Shown here piece by piece: positions 3,021-49,576 of a stretch of 64,000 nucleotides of DNA; the first letter of the stretch is position 1, and the number at the start of each line of letters is the position of its first letter. Under the pieces are notes generated by a model. The model worked only from the letters and a program-made list of their open reading frames with translations, ran no database searches and was not told where the DNA came from. Source of the DNA: Tetrapyrgos nigripes (taxonomy: Eukaryota > Basidiomycota > Agaricomycetes > Agaricales > Campanellaceae). The position numbers and the translations under genes are program-made. The stretch spans positions 62,001-126,000 of the forward strand of contig JAACJM010000123.1 in NCBI GenBank assembly GCA_013368315.1, in the 5' to 3' direction.

Positions 3021-4403
3021 AATGTTAAAGCTTTTATGATGTAACGAGGAGTGTTGGGACTATGCTGACGATAGCTCGAGAGGAAGAAAAATACAAGGCA
3101 AAGAATGAAATGATGGTAAGTAGAGAAGAACAGACCTGAGCTCAACTCGAGGTGGTACAATGGGATGCTTTGTCCATTGCGTGTTTGAGGTTTTATAGTA
3201 TCATGACCATCTGAAAGTGGCCCTTTTTCTCTCTTCCACATTGAACAAAGATGGCTTGAGCGTCACCTGCAGCCGTCTGTGTGCTGTGAAACTATAGTAT
3301 CAATCATGATCATGATAGATTCAGCGAACCGAGAGATGATCATGCCAAAAGCTGTAGATTACCCTGGACTTAATACACTTGAACGCAAAGCTTAGAATGA
3401 CTTGGCACTGGCGATGATTTAGGAGAATTCTCATACCAGTCTGTGCTATTTGAATATCACTCACGATTATGATTTTGTTCTGCGATGCGGAAGAAACTGT
3501 GAAGTGCCAAGTCGATGATCATCTCAGAAGCGGCAGATTGCCCTTAAACACATCAGCGTCACAAGCATTGACGCTCTTTGAAGGTTCAGTTGAACATCAT
3601 GGGTGTCGATCACCGTCTTCTAGGTTCCTATCTGCGGGATCCTTTGGCCTTAAGATGCAAGTCGAAGTGATGTAACATAAAATCAAAGATGAGCATAGAC
3701 TCCTGAACAGAAAGAAACGCAAGCGACTTGCATGATCCGATAAGTTGTACACGCTGCGCAGCTTCATTTTCCTCGGGTCATAGATCCCAAGTAGTACTCA
3801 GTAATTTTGATGAAGATAGATGCCTGTTAACCTGAGTGAATCATTGAGCATCCTTCAGAGGGTACTTATGCTGGACCTTGACCCATGCGCGGTTGCCTGA
3901 AGTAACTCTCCAAGGTCATCAGTTTACCGGGAGAATCAAGAACAGATTAAAGAGAATCCAGGGCAGCACAGGCTTCAGTGCTAAGGCATCTTTTTGTGTA
4001 GAAGGATAGGAGTTCGAAGCGGCACCCTTGTAGAAGTTGGTTTGCCCTTGGCATCAGACTCGGTAGATTCTATCTGCTACAATGCCACATCGTAAACAGT
4101 AATGATTGATTTGGTCAAGCTGACTTCGGACGCGGAAGCACTGTTCACTCTGGAATGATGATCATATCAGTATCAAGCAGTGCCGGAAACCTTTGATTAC
4201 AAACGCTTCCCAGTGAGAAACGCAAAGAAAGGTCTTTAAACCTAGCTTGCACAAGTGTTGCTTCAAAACTATAAAGGTAAGCTGGAGGATTGCGGACATA
4301 GTCAGAACACATTCCCTCCTCAGATTAGTTGAGCCGCGCTCACTTACCCAATACGATTACATTCCTTTGATTTTCCCCTTCCTGATTCATCCCAGTATAC
4401 ATC
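3021..4403. other. Shared upstream region of the divergent secreted-protein pair
   Basis: No exon is recognised. GATCAT-rich words recur near 3310, 3340, 3515 and 4160 and may be copies of an upstream element kept after gene duplication. A TATAAA at 4270-4275 lies 134 bp before the ATG of copy B. Confidence 0.35.
3191..3197 (-). promoter_or_regulatory. Candidate TATA box for the secreted protein gene A
   Basis: TATAAAA reads on the minus strand 171 bp upstream of the ATG at 3020. The distance implies a 5' UTR of about 140 bp. Weak evidence on its own. Confidence 0.35.
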
Positions 4404-44425: not shown

Positions 44426-45098
44426 TGTCGTGGATGTGATGATGGTACTACGGTGAAAGCCTGAGATAAAGCGGAAGACTCAAGGGATAATTCTATTTGG
44501 CAACCCCAGAGATGCGCAGGTTGCCCTGATTCCTCCGGCCGTTCTTTAGTATTCTCATTTTGTTCTCATTCAACTTCAACGCTTGTTGACGGTCAACGAC
44601 GATGAGTTGGCAACGAGTTGGTCAGTTTGGTACCGGTACTTTCTCTAATCCCTGTCCTATTCTTACTCTAATTCCCGACACCTTTGCCATAGCCATCATC
44701 TTCCCCAACCACAGTAAAAATCCCCTTTCCCCTCATCCACGCCGCAACATTATTTTCCGACTTGATAGCGTCTAATACACCGACAACGGCTACTATGGTC
44801 TCGTCGTACTTTCGAGAATCGAGGGATCCTTTTATTTTTATCCCTGCCCGGATTATCGTTTGCGTTTGCACCCCCATTGACACCTCCATTGACAATGCTG
44901 TAGCATGAAGCGGTAGCAGTAACGGTGACAATCAAGTGACAATAACAAGTACAATAACGGTAGAGGATGGAGGGGGAGGCGGCATCCCGCCGTAAAGACC
45001 ATGGCCGTCCATACTAATATCCATATCCATAGTCCCACCAACAGCCCCACCACCCCAATTCGAATTCGTAAGCAGGTCACCGTCACCAACGATCTCAG

Positions 45099-45105
45099 TC
45101 GCAAT
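45099..45105. repeat. Target site duplication, left
   Basis: TCGCAAT directly before the element; identical to 48825-48831. The empty site in copy 1 reads TCACAAT once (29718-29724). Confidence 0.85.
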
Positions 45106-45323
45106 CTAGTCTCCCCTAGTCAGACTGTCGATATACCATACGGTATATGAAGTCTGCTAGTACGCGCGTCACTTTTGGCGGCGCGGGCGTTATTAGTCAT
45201 AAAACCCTAAAAAGGAAGCATCACGTGTAGTCGGCTCTGTACCTTTTTCCGCAACTTTCATCTTCTCGTTGCGTTCTTGCGTGTCGGTACGAAATAAACC
45301 GCGTCGTTTCCTAAAAATTCAGA

Positions 45324-46919
45324 ATGAAAGATGCCAATGACGATGAACTACTACTCCGTTTCTTCCCGAACCAGCAAACCACGCACCAAAGCCATGTTTT
45401 TCGTGTCAACGCTCTCAATGTTGACTCCAGCATCCCTCCTCCGAGACCTGTTCCTGCTGGTAACACTACCTCTACCCTTTCGTTCTGTATGGAGAGTGGA
45501 AATCCCCAGGTTAGCAGGCCAAGAGGGCGCCCTAGAGCTACTACAAATGTCTCCCTTCCTCTGCCTACACTCCCTTCCGTGCCTTCCAACGCTCAGGACT
45601 ACACCTTACTATCCCAAACTCAGCATTATCGACCTCTCCTACCCTCTTTCTCACTTCCGAGCCCCAATACACCTTTCCACCCAGCTCTAAATCTCCCTTT
45701 CCAACGCACAACACCTATTCCAGGGATATCTCAGGACGTCGAGACATTTCCCGCTGATCTCGTTGAAGAAGACCAACTAAATCTCGCCGTAGATATACCC
45801 GTCTACCCCCATATCATTCCTCCATCAATAGACGGACCTGTCGAGCACCCGCTGCCAACACCTCCAACTTCTGTGCCTGGTACTTCTCGCGCAGAGTTTG
45901 TTCATTCACTTCCGGCTCTCCGTAAACCTAAAATTTCGAACGACGCACGCTTCCAAGCTGCCATGGAATATCTTCTTGACGAATTGAAATATGAATCTGT
46001 CGTAGATTTTTTCTACGAATACTTGGAGCCACTTCCTCCCGGCTCTATTGATCCATTCATAGCTCGGCGCAAGCTCAAATTGCAAGCTTTTCTGGGAGGT
46101 AGAACTCGAGTCAAACCCATTGATTTGATTCAGCGTATGTATTATCATCAATACAGCTTTCCATCCCGACGATGCGTTGACAAGGAAAAAGAGAGGAAGG
46201 CGGCCTTTTCTCCTTCCGAGCCACCAGCCACGATCAAGTATGCACGTTGCTCAATTTCGGCTTGGGCAACGCAACTTGTCGGCGAGCATGTTCACCGAGA
46301 GATGGAAAAAGCTATCCACCCAGCGAAACCTTTGGATCCTGATCAGGACTCAGGCTCGGACTCGAATTCCAACATGGATAATCCTCCTTTCATTCCTCCT
46401 CGACTCGTCGCTTCTGCCAACGAACGCACAAAAGCCAAGGGTGTACAGCTAGTAACCAAGGAGCTTCTTATGTCCTTTCGCATCTCGGATCGCGTCAGAT
46501 TTTTTCAGAAGACATTACCTGTCGCATGGTATCTCACGGAATGCATGGCTGGACGCCGCGAGAACAATAAGGTGATGAAGGGTAAACGGAGACCTTTGAC
46601 TGTTGTAAGTATTTTTCTTTCTATTCAACGCATTGATACCTAATGAATTTGTATTTAGATTCAAGTCGCTAGCTTATCATCTTTCCTCATGTCCCGAAAC
46701 CAGTATGTTAATGGTTACTGGGCGATGCAGCATGGGATTTGGCACATCGCGTGTCAATCTCACATTGATATCCAACGTGGAGACTCCCTGCGAGGCATGA
46801 GTGTACACAAGACAACCGCCATTAAAGCCCTCCAAAAAATGGCTCAGCAGTCATTGGATGCACTTCGTAAAGACGTGAAGGACGCATGTAGTCATTCAGC
46901 AGTGAGCTATAAGAGGTGA
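45324..46919 (+). CDS. DUF6589-like protein of the RecQ element, 3'-truncated
   Basis: Exons 45324-46604 and 46659-46919 (54-bp intron, phase 0) give 513 residues. The N-terminus is Pro/Ser-rich with an RPRGRPR AT-hook-like motif. The middle is helical (RFQAAMEYLLDELKYESVVD, then a basic KLKLQAFLGGRTRVKP). The end reads SSFLMSRNQYVNGYWAMQHG, then MSVHKTTAIKALQKMAQQSL. That last pattern (LMSRNQxxN..G followed by a short helix and KAL..L) resembles the start of DUF6589 proteins common in agaricomycetes, which run much longer. The protein stops soon after, overlapping the helicase 3' end by 98 bp on the other strand. It may be the transposase-like component, but no catalytic triad is visible in what remains. 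Confidence 0.6.
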
Positions 46920-48732
46920 TCTTGAGTAAATCGGTGAGGAGAATGTCGATGATCTCGGAAGGGAAGTATAAAGAACGAGGGACATTTCGATGAGTAAGGC
47001 GAGTACGTTCCTCAAGCCAGACTTGTTTGTCAAAATCCATCAGCGCAGTCCGCACTAGCTGTATCTCCTTCTTCTTCAACTCATCTTGACGTTTTTTTGA
47101 TTTCTTGGCGTTGGTAACAGGTGGAGGAACGATGAAGGGTGGAAGGACATCTGTACTGGCTGATGGAGGAAAAGAAGGGAGTACAATAAGATCGTAGCGT
47201 GCACGGCATAAATCACAGGGTAGACGACGCTTTGCCTGAATGCAGTCAAGGTAACCGGTTTCAGGATCGGGATTTTGATAAATCCTGTTGAGACGAGCTG
47301 GACGACAGAAAGACTCGCCAAGGAATGATGCCTTGATAGGATCCATAGGTGCAGTTTTAGCATTCAAAGTTGAGGTATCAATACCGTCTATAGTACAGAT
47401 GAATACTCCTGAATATAGCCAATACATCGAGAAAATACTCACCTTTAACCATTTGCTTCGCTTTTTTCAACTGTGATGACGGCACTAAAATAATCCTACG
47501 TGCATTTCGAGACCTATTTCGTCCAACTCGTCCACCCAACTGATCTGTTTCGGGTTGAGTATCTGGATCTCCGACACATATGCTGTCTTCCAAAGGATCT
47601 GCGTGAATCCCCAGAGAGAAGGCCTTGGTAGCTATGGCAACTTGACAATGTTCGTCGTTCTTGAGAAGGTCGATAGTTCACTGATTGTAAGTGTCTGGGG
47701 CCAGAGCACTATACATGCGTATACGGCAGTGTCGGTTATACGTCTTGGGTGCATTCTTGAAGAGATAAAGGAAAACACGATAGCCGAGCTCAATAGTTTT
47801 GACATGAATGATGGTTTTTCGGCGTTGGTTGAGGTAGGGAAGGAGTTGGGGAAATTCTCGGCCACCGAGTGGAGTTGTGAGTTCTTCAATATCAATTTGA
47901 ACATTTGGACATTCATTGGAACAGCGTATGAGGTGAAAGTTGGGGCCATGGAAACCGAGTGATGAGCAGACGGAGTCATATGGTGCACCAGGAAGCATCG
48001 TCGCTGTCATAGCAAATCTAGAAATAGATGACGGTAGTCTACCACGAAAGAACGACCCAATGAGACGAAATAGTGGCCTAAAACCCAGGCCCCATTCCTC
48101 AACAACATGTGCTTCTTCAGTGCACCCAAAGATGACGTTGGAGCGAAAGGGTTCAGAGTCAGTGATGGTGGTCCATTCGGGCTTTCGCAAGTGTTCGGGA
48201 TCAACGCATACAATCTGGAATTTGCAGTCGATAATCTCCTTGACAATATTGCGGCCATTTCTTGAGGCGTCGGAAACGTTGTTCTGAGTGTAAGCAAATG
48301 CTGGAATTCTAAACTGATGCTGTAGTTCGTATACCTAGAATGTTACATATTGTTAGAGGCTCGGATCTAAGACTGTCTGAGACGTACAATATTGTTTGCT
48401 AGACCTTTTGTTGGTGTAATCACTATTCCAACTGGTTTCTTGCGCATAGTTACTGAGAAGGAGGGGTATAGAGTTGGATTGTTTGCGACTTCGGCATGTA
48501 CAAGGATGGGAATGGCGAAGAGGGCTGACTTTCCGTCACCAGTAGCAGTAATTGCAAATAGATCTTGATTGTCAAGGATATGAGAGATGGACTCGCTCTG
48601 AAACTCTCGTAATCCAGTGGGCCAATGAGGTATTAGCTTCATTACTATCGTTCTGAGGGCTTGCTGGCCTTCGCTTGAGCGAAACGAAAGGGCGGGAGGC
48701 ATAGGAGGTGGTGGTTTGGGCTCAAGACGCAT
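46822..48732 (-). pseudogene. RecQ-family DNA helicase of the element, one in-frame stop
   Basis: Exons 48732-48388, 48334-47443 and 47387-46822 give 600 codons. Visible helicase parts: LREFQSESISHIL, motif I ATGDGKS, motif Ia ITPTKGL, the DPEHL block, motif II as EEAH (RecQ has DEAH), motif III TATM, and in the second RecA domain IATKAFSLGIHADP with the GGRVGR motif VI. A Cys-rich RecQ zinc-like part (CDLCRARYD) follows. A TGA at 47678-47680 follows YNQ, where family members read on. The C-terminus beyond 46.9 kb appears replaced by antisense of the neighbouring gene. Start ATG lies 92 bp from the element end. 3'-5' DNA unwinding is the family role; here it would serve transposition or replication of the element. 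Confidence 0.85.
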
Positions 48733-48824
48733 TGACGCGACTGCGGCTGTGCATTTCCATTTTGGGGATTTATTACTAATAACCTGTCACGCCGCCAAAA
48801 GCGACGCGGCTACTACAGGACTAG

Positions 48825-48831
48825 TCGCAAT
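48825..48831. repeat. Target site duplication, right
   Basis: TCGCAAT directly after the element, identical to 45099-45105. Confidence 0.85.
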
Positions 48832-48976
48832 CGTCTTCACAGACGCAGAGGATCTAGGATCTGCCGGAATCGACATATCAGATAGAGAAGATTTGGTTTT
48901 TTGAAGAATGAGGCCAATGTTGGTGTTGGAGTCGACGTTTGAAGAAAATTCCCCTTGACTAAAGAGGTAGATCATG

Positions 48977-49576
48977 TAGGGCTCCTAACGGATCGGATTG
49001 GGTCGGATTCGGATGCCAATCCGTTCGGATGGGTCGTCCAAATGTCCCAATCCGCATCCGGCAGATGTCATCCGACGGATAGCCGATCATCCGACGGATA
49101 GTGTGCCGAAAGTGGCGGCACTTGCCTTAGAGTCCTTATCTTGCGTAGAAAAACTTTAAAATTCTTTTTTTCGTCGTTTTCTTTGAGTATACATGTGTTC
49201 TATGCCTGAGATAAATAAAAGGTTCAAGTACTGACCATTTCTGACTGTCTGAGGAAATGGCGGCATGTCAACGTGTCATTTCCCACGATGCCGTAGTATC
49301 TTTTCTTGGATTCTGTTGGCCATGTGGCTTGCATCTGGCCACTCGGAAAGGTCCGAGAACACTACCACACCTCCACCCAGCCTCCTCGTCACGTCGTTCT
49401 TGGTTTTCTCTGCTGTAGACCCACTTCCCACGCCCCTACCCAATCCGCGGATGATCCTCGGATTGTCGGATGGTAATCCGTTCGGATGGGATAGACTAAA
49501 AGTCCCAATCCGCATCCGAAATCCGACTGTCCATCGGCGGATGATCGCCGGATCATCCGATCCGTTAGGAGCCCTA
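48977..49576. mobile_element. 600-bp hAT-type MITE
   Basis: Perfect inverted ends TAGGGCTCCTAACGGATCGG (22 bp in all) fit the hAT terminal rule. GGTAGATG follows the right end and GGTAGATCATG precedes the left, an 8-bp target duplication with a 3-base change. Subterminal CGGAT/ATCCG words are dense at both ends. No coding capacity is seen. Copy 1 of the duplication lacks it. Confidence 0.9.

Follow-up and report, generated by a model that had tools for sequence, protein, structure and literature searches.

A deleted copy of a helicase-bearing transposon, most likely of the AcademH type, and solo hairpins of its family in Tetrapyrgos nigripes

What kind of mobile element joins a RecQ-like helicase gene to a long, convergent open reading frame (ORF) between short inverted ends? 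The question is raised by an insertion in a 64,000-nucleotide stretch of the genome of the fungus Tetrapyrgos nigripes (contig JAACJM010000123.1, positions 62,001 to 126,000; hereafter the window), for which an original prediction, made from the sequence alone, had proposed an autonomous element class in agaricomycetes. Our analysis makes it highly probable that the insertion is a cut-and-paste DNA transposon of the AcademH type that has suffered an internal deletion. The family also appears to have left solo hairpins in the genome, which suggest an asymmetric, widely staggered excision that is perhaps assisted by the helicase.

The window copy and its full-length relatives

The predicted insertion with inverted ends, a duplicated target, and two convergent genes is borne out by the sequence (Table 1), as is the empty homologous site, which lies between matching sister blocks (28251-29697/43589-45055, 89.3%; 29716-29843/48823-48944, 78.9%) and whose extent we mended by one base at either side. 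As the sister segments are only 79-89% alike, the two mismatches between GTCGCAATC and GTCACAATT are expected. The duplication had been given as the 7-bp TCGCAAT, but this is only the core of 9 bp, with one further base repeating on either side, a length that is settled by the other copies. From the proposed ends CTAGTC/GACTAG, the outer C and G accordingly pass to the target duplication. The perfect terminal repeat then measures 5 bp in the window copy (TAGTC/GACTA), and full-length relatives have one of 6 bp (TAGTCT/AGACTA). The longer inverted repeats do exist, in a subterminal position (about 61 bp, 80%).

Further loci with both genes and the same type of ends, on which the proposed element class depended, were found in the T. 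nigripes genome. Three full-length elements, C88 (6353 bp), C80 (6171 bp), and C300 (6205 bp), start with TAGTCT, end with AGACTA, and are flanked by exact 9-bp duplications; full-length relatives carry a protein with the Pfam domain DUF6589, convergent with a RecQ-like helicase. By hand count, the helicase was convergent within 6 kb at 12 of 25 transposase-type loci of this genome. Exact 9-bp duplications were seen in at least one copy at 14 of 15 two-ended sites (the exception is C225/C3), and because the duplication belonged to the detection rule in 9 of these 14, the independent count is 5 of 6. When the joined flanks of 11 sites served as query, 41 matches were obtained, insertion sites among them. 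All 12 empty loci that were read (for the insertions C88, C300, C58, C111, and C164) had a single 9-bp target without a scar, and the target had one mismatch at two of them. The window element as query also detected two derivatives of about 1.46 kb, C164 and C215, which are 97-99% identical and lack the helicase. As they share identical internal deletions at separate target sites, this deleted form appears to have been mobile recently.

Two side aspects of these loci may be added. The C300 element sits inside repeated sequence with more than 10 further genome matches (C25, C3, C121, C317, C248, C133, C18, and C300 itself are among the places matched), and the five that were read are empty sites. 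On C79 and C24, one target site, as judged by the flank, is occupied by copies of 530 bp and 1303 bp, respectively (L025/L026), so that these contigs may be alleles or duplicates within the assembly.

Compared with its full-length relatives, the window copy lacks about 2.5 kb. The internal deletion cuts exon 2 of its transposase gene before the first catalytic aspartate (D248 of the relative P0002 lies beyond), and all three catalytic residues are gone. The plus-strand ORF, which had been described as DUF6589-like, does belong to a DUF6589-containing protein, but it is the N-terminal part of it, and the absent C-terminal part is what constitutes DUF6589 in a full-length copy; Pfam found no domain in the ORF itself, and no sequence library called it a transposase. 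On the minus strand, a RecQ-like helicase gene is present as predicted, with PF00270 in its first piece (8.7e-11), but it is not intact, being broken by an in-frame TGA at 47678-47680. The 3' ends of the two convergent genes overlap. The missing 2.5 kb, the loss of the three catalytic residues, and the stop in the helicase mean that the window copy, judged by its sequence, is non-autonomous. It is probably immobile by itself and, like the derivatives C164 and C215, would move only with proteins from full-length copies. A family with both genes does recur in T. nigripes and other Agaricomycetes, but the copy for which an autonomous class was proposed is not itself autonomous.

The two proteins and the assignment to AcademH

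The C300 transposase model has four exons and 1129 residues. For C80, the DUF6589 profile is covered jointly by three transposase ORFs and is the only Pfam domain above cut-off in them, also when the Pfam domains of the Plavaka and KDZ families were considered. The predicted structure of the relative P0002 from Dendrothele bispora (predicted local distance difference test score, pLDDT, 90) aligned best with Hermes and then with other RNase H-type recombinases. The top 26 rows of matches were all transposases or RAG except for one Argonaute, with weak E-values from Foldseek itself. The presumed catalytic residues D248, D411, and E704 of P0002 form a D/D/E set that is almost invariant among DUF6589 relatives. 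The prediction for the DUF6589 region of P0002 is thus the RNase H fold of DDE transposases, with the D/D/E conserved, and we infer that the DUF6589 protein is the transposase of the family. A literature search for DUF6589 found the name in none of the papers searched, and our analysis offers a functional reading for it: it would be the catalytic region of a transposon that also bears a helicase.

A T. nigripes protein is identical to the C80 helicase model along its full length. The C80 helicase P0111 matched PF00270 (1.9e-16) and PF00271 (1.7e-06) in Pfam. NCBIfam, with scores below the cut-offs of its models, and a sequence search against PDB both indicate a RecQ-like protein; Pfam showed no RecQ zinc domain in four helicases at an E-value of 5. 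Motif II reads DEAH in 47, DEVH in 12, EEAH in 8, EEVH in 4, and otherwise in 2 of 100 helicase relatives (P0111-P0210), with 27 unparsed. The window helicase (47678-48334) has EEAH, and EEAH or EEVH occurs in 12 of the same 100 relatives; the aspartate of motif II binds magnesium in related helicases.

Both proteins also occur together in other genomes, on 28 common contigs with 18 species labels; the two match lists comprise 108 and 99 contigs. The contigs were matched indirectly, by their length, and pairing here means co-occurrence irrespective of orientation or ends. Several pairs have neighbouring locus tags, e.g., K435DRAFT_860767/860768 and PQX77_001394/001395. Across the 28 contigs, the distance matrices of transposase and helicase correlate at 0.93 (reached in 0 of 2000 permutations), and the nearest neighbour agrees between both matrices for 17 of the 28.

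AcademH, of the Academ superfamily, was reportedly described by Kojima in 2020. According to the literature, AcademH encodes a helicase and has 9-10 bp target-site duplications (TSDs) (PMC10045372), and it has been reported in Basidiomycota, with DEAD and Helicase_C domains assigned jointly to AcademH, KolobokH, or Helitron (PMC10799480). The view that no named transposon class has a RecQ helicase was therefore wrong, as both AcademH, with its 9-10 bp, and KolobokH, with its TTAA target, were already described. Our family shares with AcademH, as set by description, the encoded helicase (DEAD, Helicase_C), the 9-bp TSD, and a DDE transposase predicted in relatives, and is most likely of this type; its hairpin end and scars are not mentioned in the AcademH descriptions cited here. 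Marasmius oreades is another marasmioid fungus. Widespread putative non-autonomous Academ elements were reported from it (PMC8290104).

As a competing classification, the elements could form a helicase-bearing DDE superfamily of their own, apart from Academ and convergent on the 9-bp TSD. We regard this as unlikely, since helicase, 9-10 bp TSD, and occurrence in Basidiomycota together agree with the AcademH reports. Two points nevertheless weigh against our assignment: a link to Academ at the transposase level is missing, as a search that started from 13 distant DUF6589 proteins and aimed at animal Academ did not reach it and returned DUF6589 proteins, fungal where named, and DUF6589 is listed by Pfam as a family of unknown function. 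A KolobokH element is very improbable: KolobokH is described as restricted to fungi and combines a RecQ helicase with a DDD/E transposase, but Kolobok has a 4-bp TTAA TSD and RR/YY termini (PMC9587614), whereas our elements start with TA and have varied 9-bp TSDs, a length that speaks against Kolobok and fits AcademH.

Two other helicase-bearing systems were compared. The telomere-linked RecQ helicases of fungi (mentioned in PMC10817607) share the helicase but are near-telomere genes and no elements with terminal inverted repeats (TIRs). The family shares an encoded helicase and a hairpin at one end with Helitrons, and differs from them by 9-bp TSDs and TIRs. Helitrons are not known to have either of these and use a Rep/Pif1-type protein.

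A hairpin at one end and the scars it may leave

The hairpin is located at the transposase-side end of the elements. Intact left ends have the form CAGAC...GTCTG in common, and the inner stem sequence varies with the pairing kept: in one subgroup with 23 distinct arm pairs, 5.52 of 7 positions paired versus 4.25 +/- 0.19 with swapped arms (maximum 4.91 in 5000), although a few of the 23 pairs were mis-parsed and paired poorly. When the first 75 nt were folded (60 letter shuffles each), 15 of 23 left ends reached z <= -2, compared with 4 of 16 right ends. A hairpin common to the right ends was considered and dropped, as the right-end folds differ by eye in place and form.

Left-end patterns gave three overlapping sets of matches in 98 Mb, namely 375 (at most 2 mismatches; reversed control 6), 146 (control 0), and 121 (control 11). 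The window-type right-end pattern gave 17; as these patterns differ in stringency, 17 versus 375 is not used as evidence of one-sidedness. We read 120 left-end loci in short stretches, 60 chosen for diversity (20 per list) and 60 in listing order with those already read skipped (40 from the 146-match list and 20 from the 121-match list). By a simple text rule, GTCTG followed downstream in 23 of the second 60 loci and was missing in 37; the rule errs both ways, as L133 and L152 appear to be intact ends in which an arm has mutated and L120 and L136 are scar-like with a chance GTCTG. At 17 of the 37 loci without GTCTG, the break was flanked by a target duplication, which was exact over 9 bp or more at 13 of them, compared to a mean of 0.2 and a maximum of 2 after swapping (200 shuffles). 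Three of the 23 loci with GTCTG likewise scored a duplication, each with one mismatch. All 120 loci together yielded 44 scored scars, 28-79 and mostly 41-62 bp long, and 24 of the 44 terminate precisely with the GTA that forms the hairpin edge before GTCTG; in the window hairpin, this boundary maps to the position before GTCTG at 45152. Under a slightly different rule, 44 of the 120 loci were intact-like, 43 were scars flanked by a duplication, and 33 showed neither feature. In these 33, a suffix of the duplication of at least 5 bp was kept in 7 (null mean 1.5, maximum 6 of 1000), which is what end joining would predict, and prefix remnants of at least 5 bp in 5 (null mean 1.2, maximum 6), while a test of mean length for nibbled duplications was non-significant over the 33 loci (0.068 of the shuffles reached the value). 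For the unpaired right ends L009, L012, and L019, the stretches read contained no TSD partners.

The best fit to this pattern would be insertion of the full element and a later excision in which the left 40-60 bp stay in place and everything else as far as the right duplication is lost. As transposase, the DUF6589 protein would act in trans on the short ends TAGTCT/AGACTA, and the helicase would help to separate the DNA strands in excision or repair. For the excision, we tentatively favour an asymmetric course: at the transposase-side end, the non-transferred strand would be nicked 40-60 nt into the element, where the hairpin has its base, and the other end would be cut at or near the boundary. 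The helicase would open the DNA between the nicks, and the hairpin scar with its 9-bp duplication would stay behind. A long stagger at one end, set by the hairpin, would need strand separation, and the element may bring its own RecQ-like helicase for it. The P element of Drosophila has an 8-bp TSD, is staggered at each end, and is not known to encode a helicase. It resembles our family in its RNase H-type transposase, whose staggered cut, at 17 nt, is unusually long, and in the involvement of the Bloom (RecQ) helicase in donor repair (PMC7776569).

Three other explanations of the scars were weighed. One, which we consider improbable, is that they stem from excision at an internal pseudo-end, a mis-recognised TAGTCTG, in place of a staggered cut at one end. 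In many copies the scar edge indeed lies at TA/GTCTG and resembles the real end TAGTCTC, but some scars end in CA or GA before GTCTG and lack TAGTCT. This reading also predicts copies that start at the internal edge, and it is weakened because the one subfamily tested had none (13 matches with the native preceding G, 0 with A, C, or T). Less likely still, the solo hairpins could be tiny mobile elements inserted as units of about 40-60 bp, as might be suggested by identical 41-bp forms at several loci with differing TSDs (L058, L126, L128, L142). However, the same hairpin form also occurs intact, joined to GTCTG, at three loci (0-1 mismatch), scars occur in several subfamilies, 20 of the 37 ends without GTCTG have no recognised TSD, and the TSD suffixes kept at 7 of the 33 ends, in spite of the non-significant mean-length version, likewise speak against independent units. 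Aborted gap repair, finally, is equally doubtful: it would accord with the role of the Bloom homologue in P element break repair (PMC7776569), but it predicts variable lengths and remnants at either end, whereas 24 of 44 scars end in GTA (no search for right-end remnants was made).

The asymmetric excision would suggest, in a form open to testing, what such a transposon needs a helicase for, and if it holds, past jumps can be read from the genome as from a log. As excision footprints, the scars would record many jumps of one family and make the excision mechanism open to direct test. A literature search on hairpin excision footprints of fungal DNA transposons found none by title; the original AcademH description may already contain them.

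Coordinates and a neighbouring insertion

Table 1. Features of the window element and its sister site (window positions)
Feature	Position	Strand	Basis or remark
Whole element	45107-48823	+	3717 bp, TAGTC...GACTA; ends common to other copies and 9-bp TSD
Left target duplication GTCGCAATC, 9 bp	45098-45106	+	identical to 48824-48832
Right target duplication GTCGCAATC, 9 bp	48824-48832	+	identical to 45098-45106
Empty site GTCACAATT in sister segment	29717-29725	+	single target, 2 mismatches versus GTCGCAATC
Terminal hairpin CAGAC...GTCTG	45121-45156	+	folding and comparison across copies
Left subterminal repeat	45158-45217	+	self-match, element positions 53-112 versus 3650-3710; inverted partner of right end (~80%)
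Right subterminal repeat	48755-48815	-	same self-match as left subterminal repeat
Transposase gene, exon 1 (N-terminal part)	45324-46604	+	ORF; resembles N-terminal parts of full-length copies
Transposase gene, intron	46605-46658	+	located by eye in the sequence
Transposase gene, exon 2	46659-46919	+	alignment columns 608-680 = P0002 residues 162-234; homology to ~46904
RecQ-like helicase gene, intron-split	46822-48732	-	ORFs; four pieces match helicase P0111 and relatives

Between the right-hand sister blocks, an extra insertion of about 600 bp (48977-49576) is not present in the sister segment. It has perfect 22-bp inverted ends, TAGGGCTCCTAACGGATCGGAT, and is possibly a miniature inverted-repeat transposable element with a TA target.
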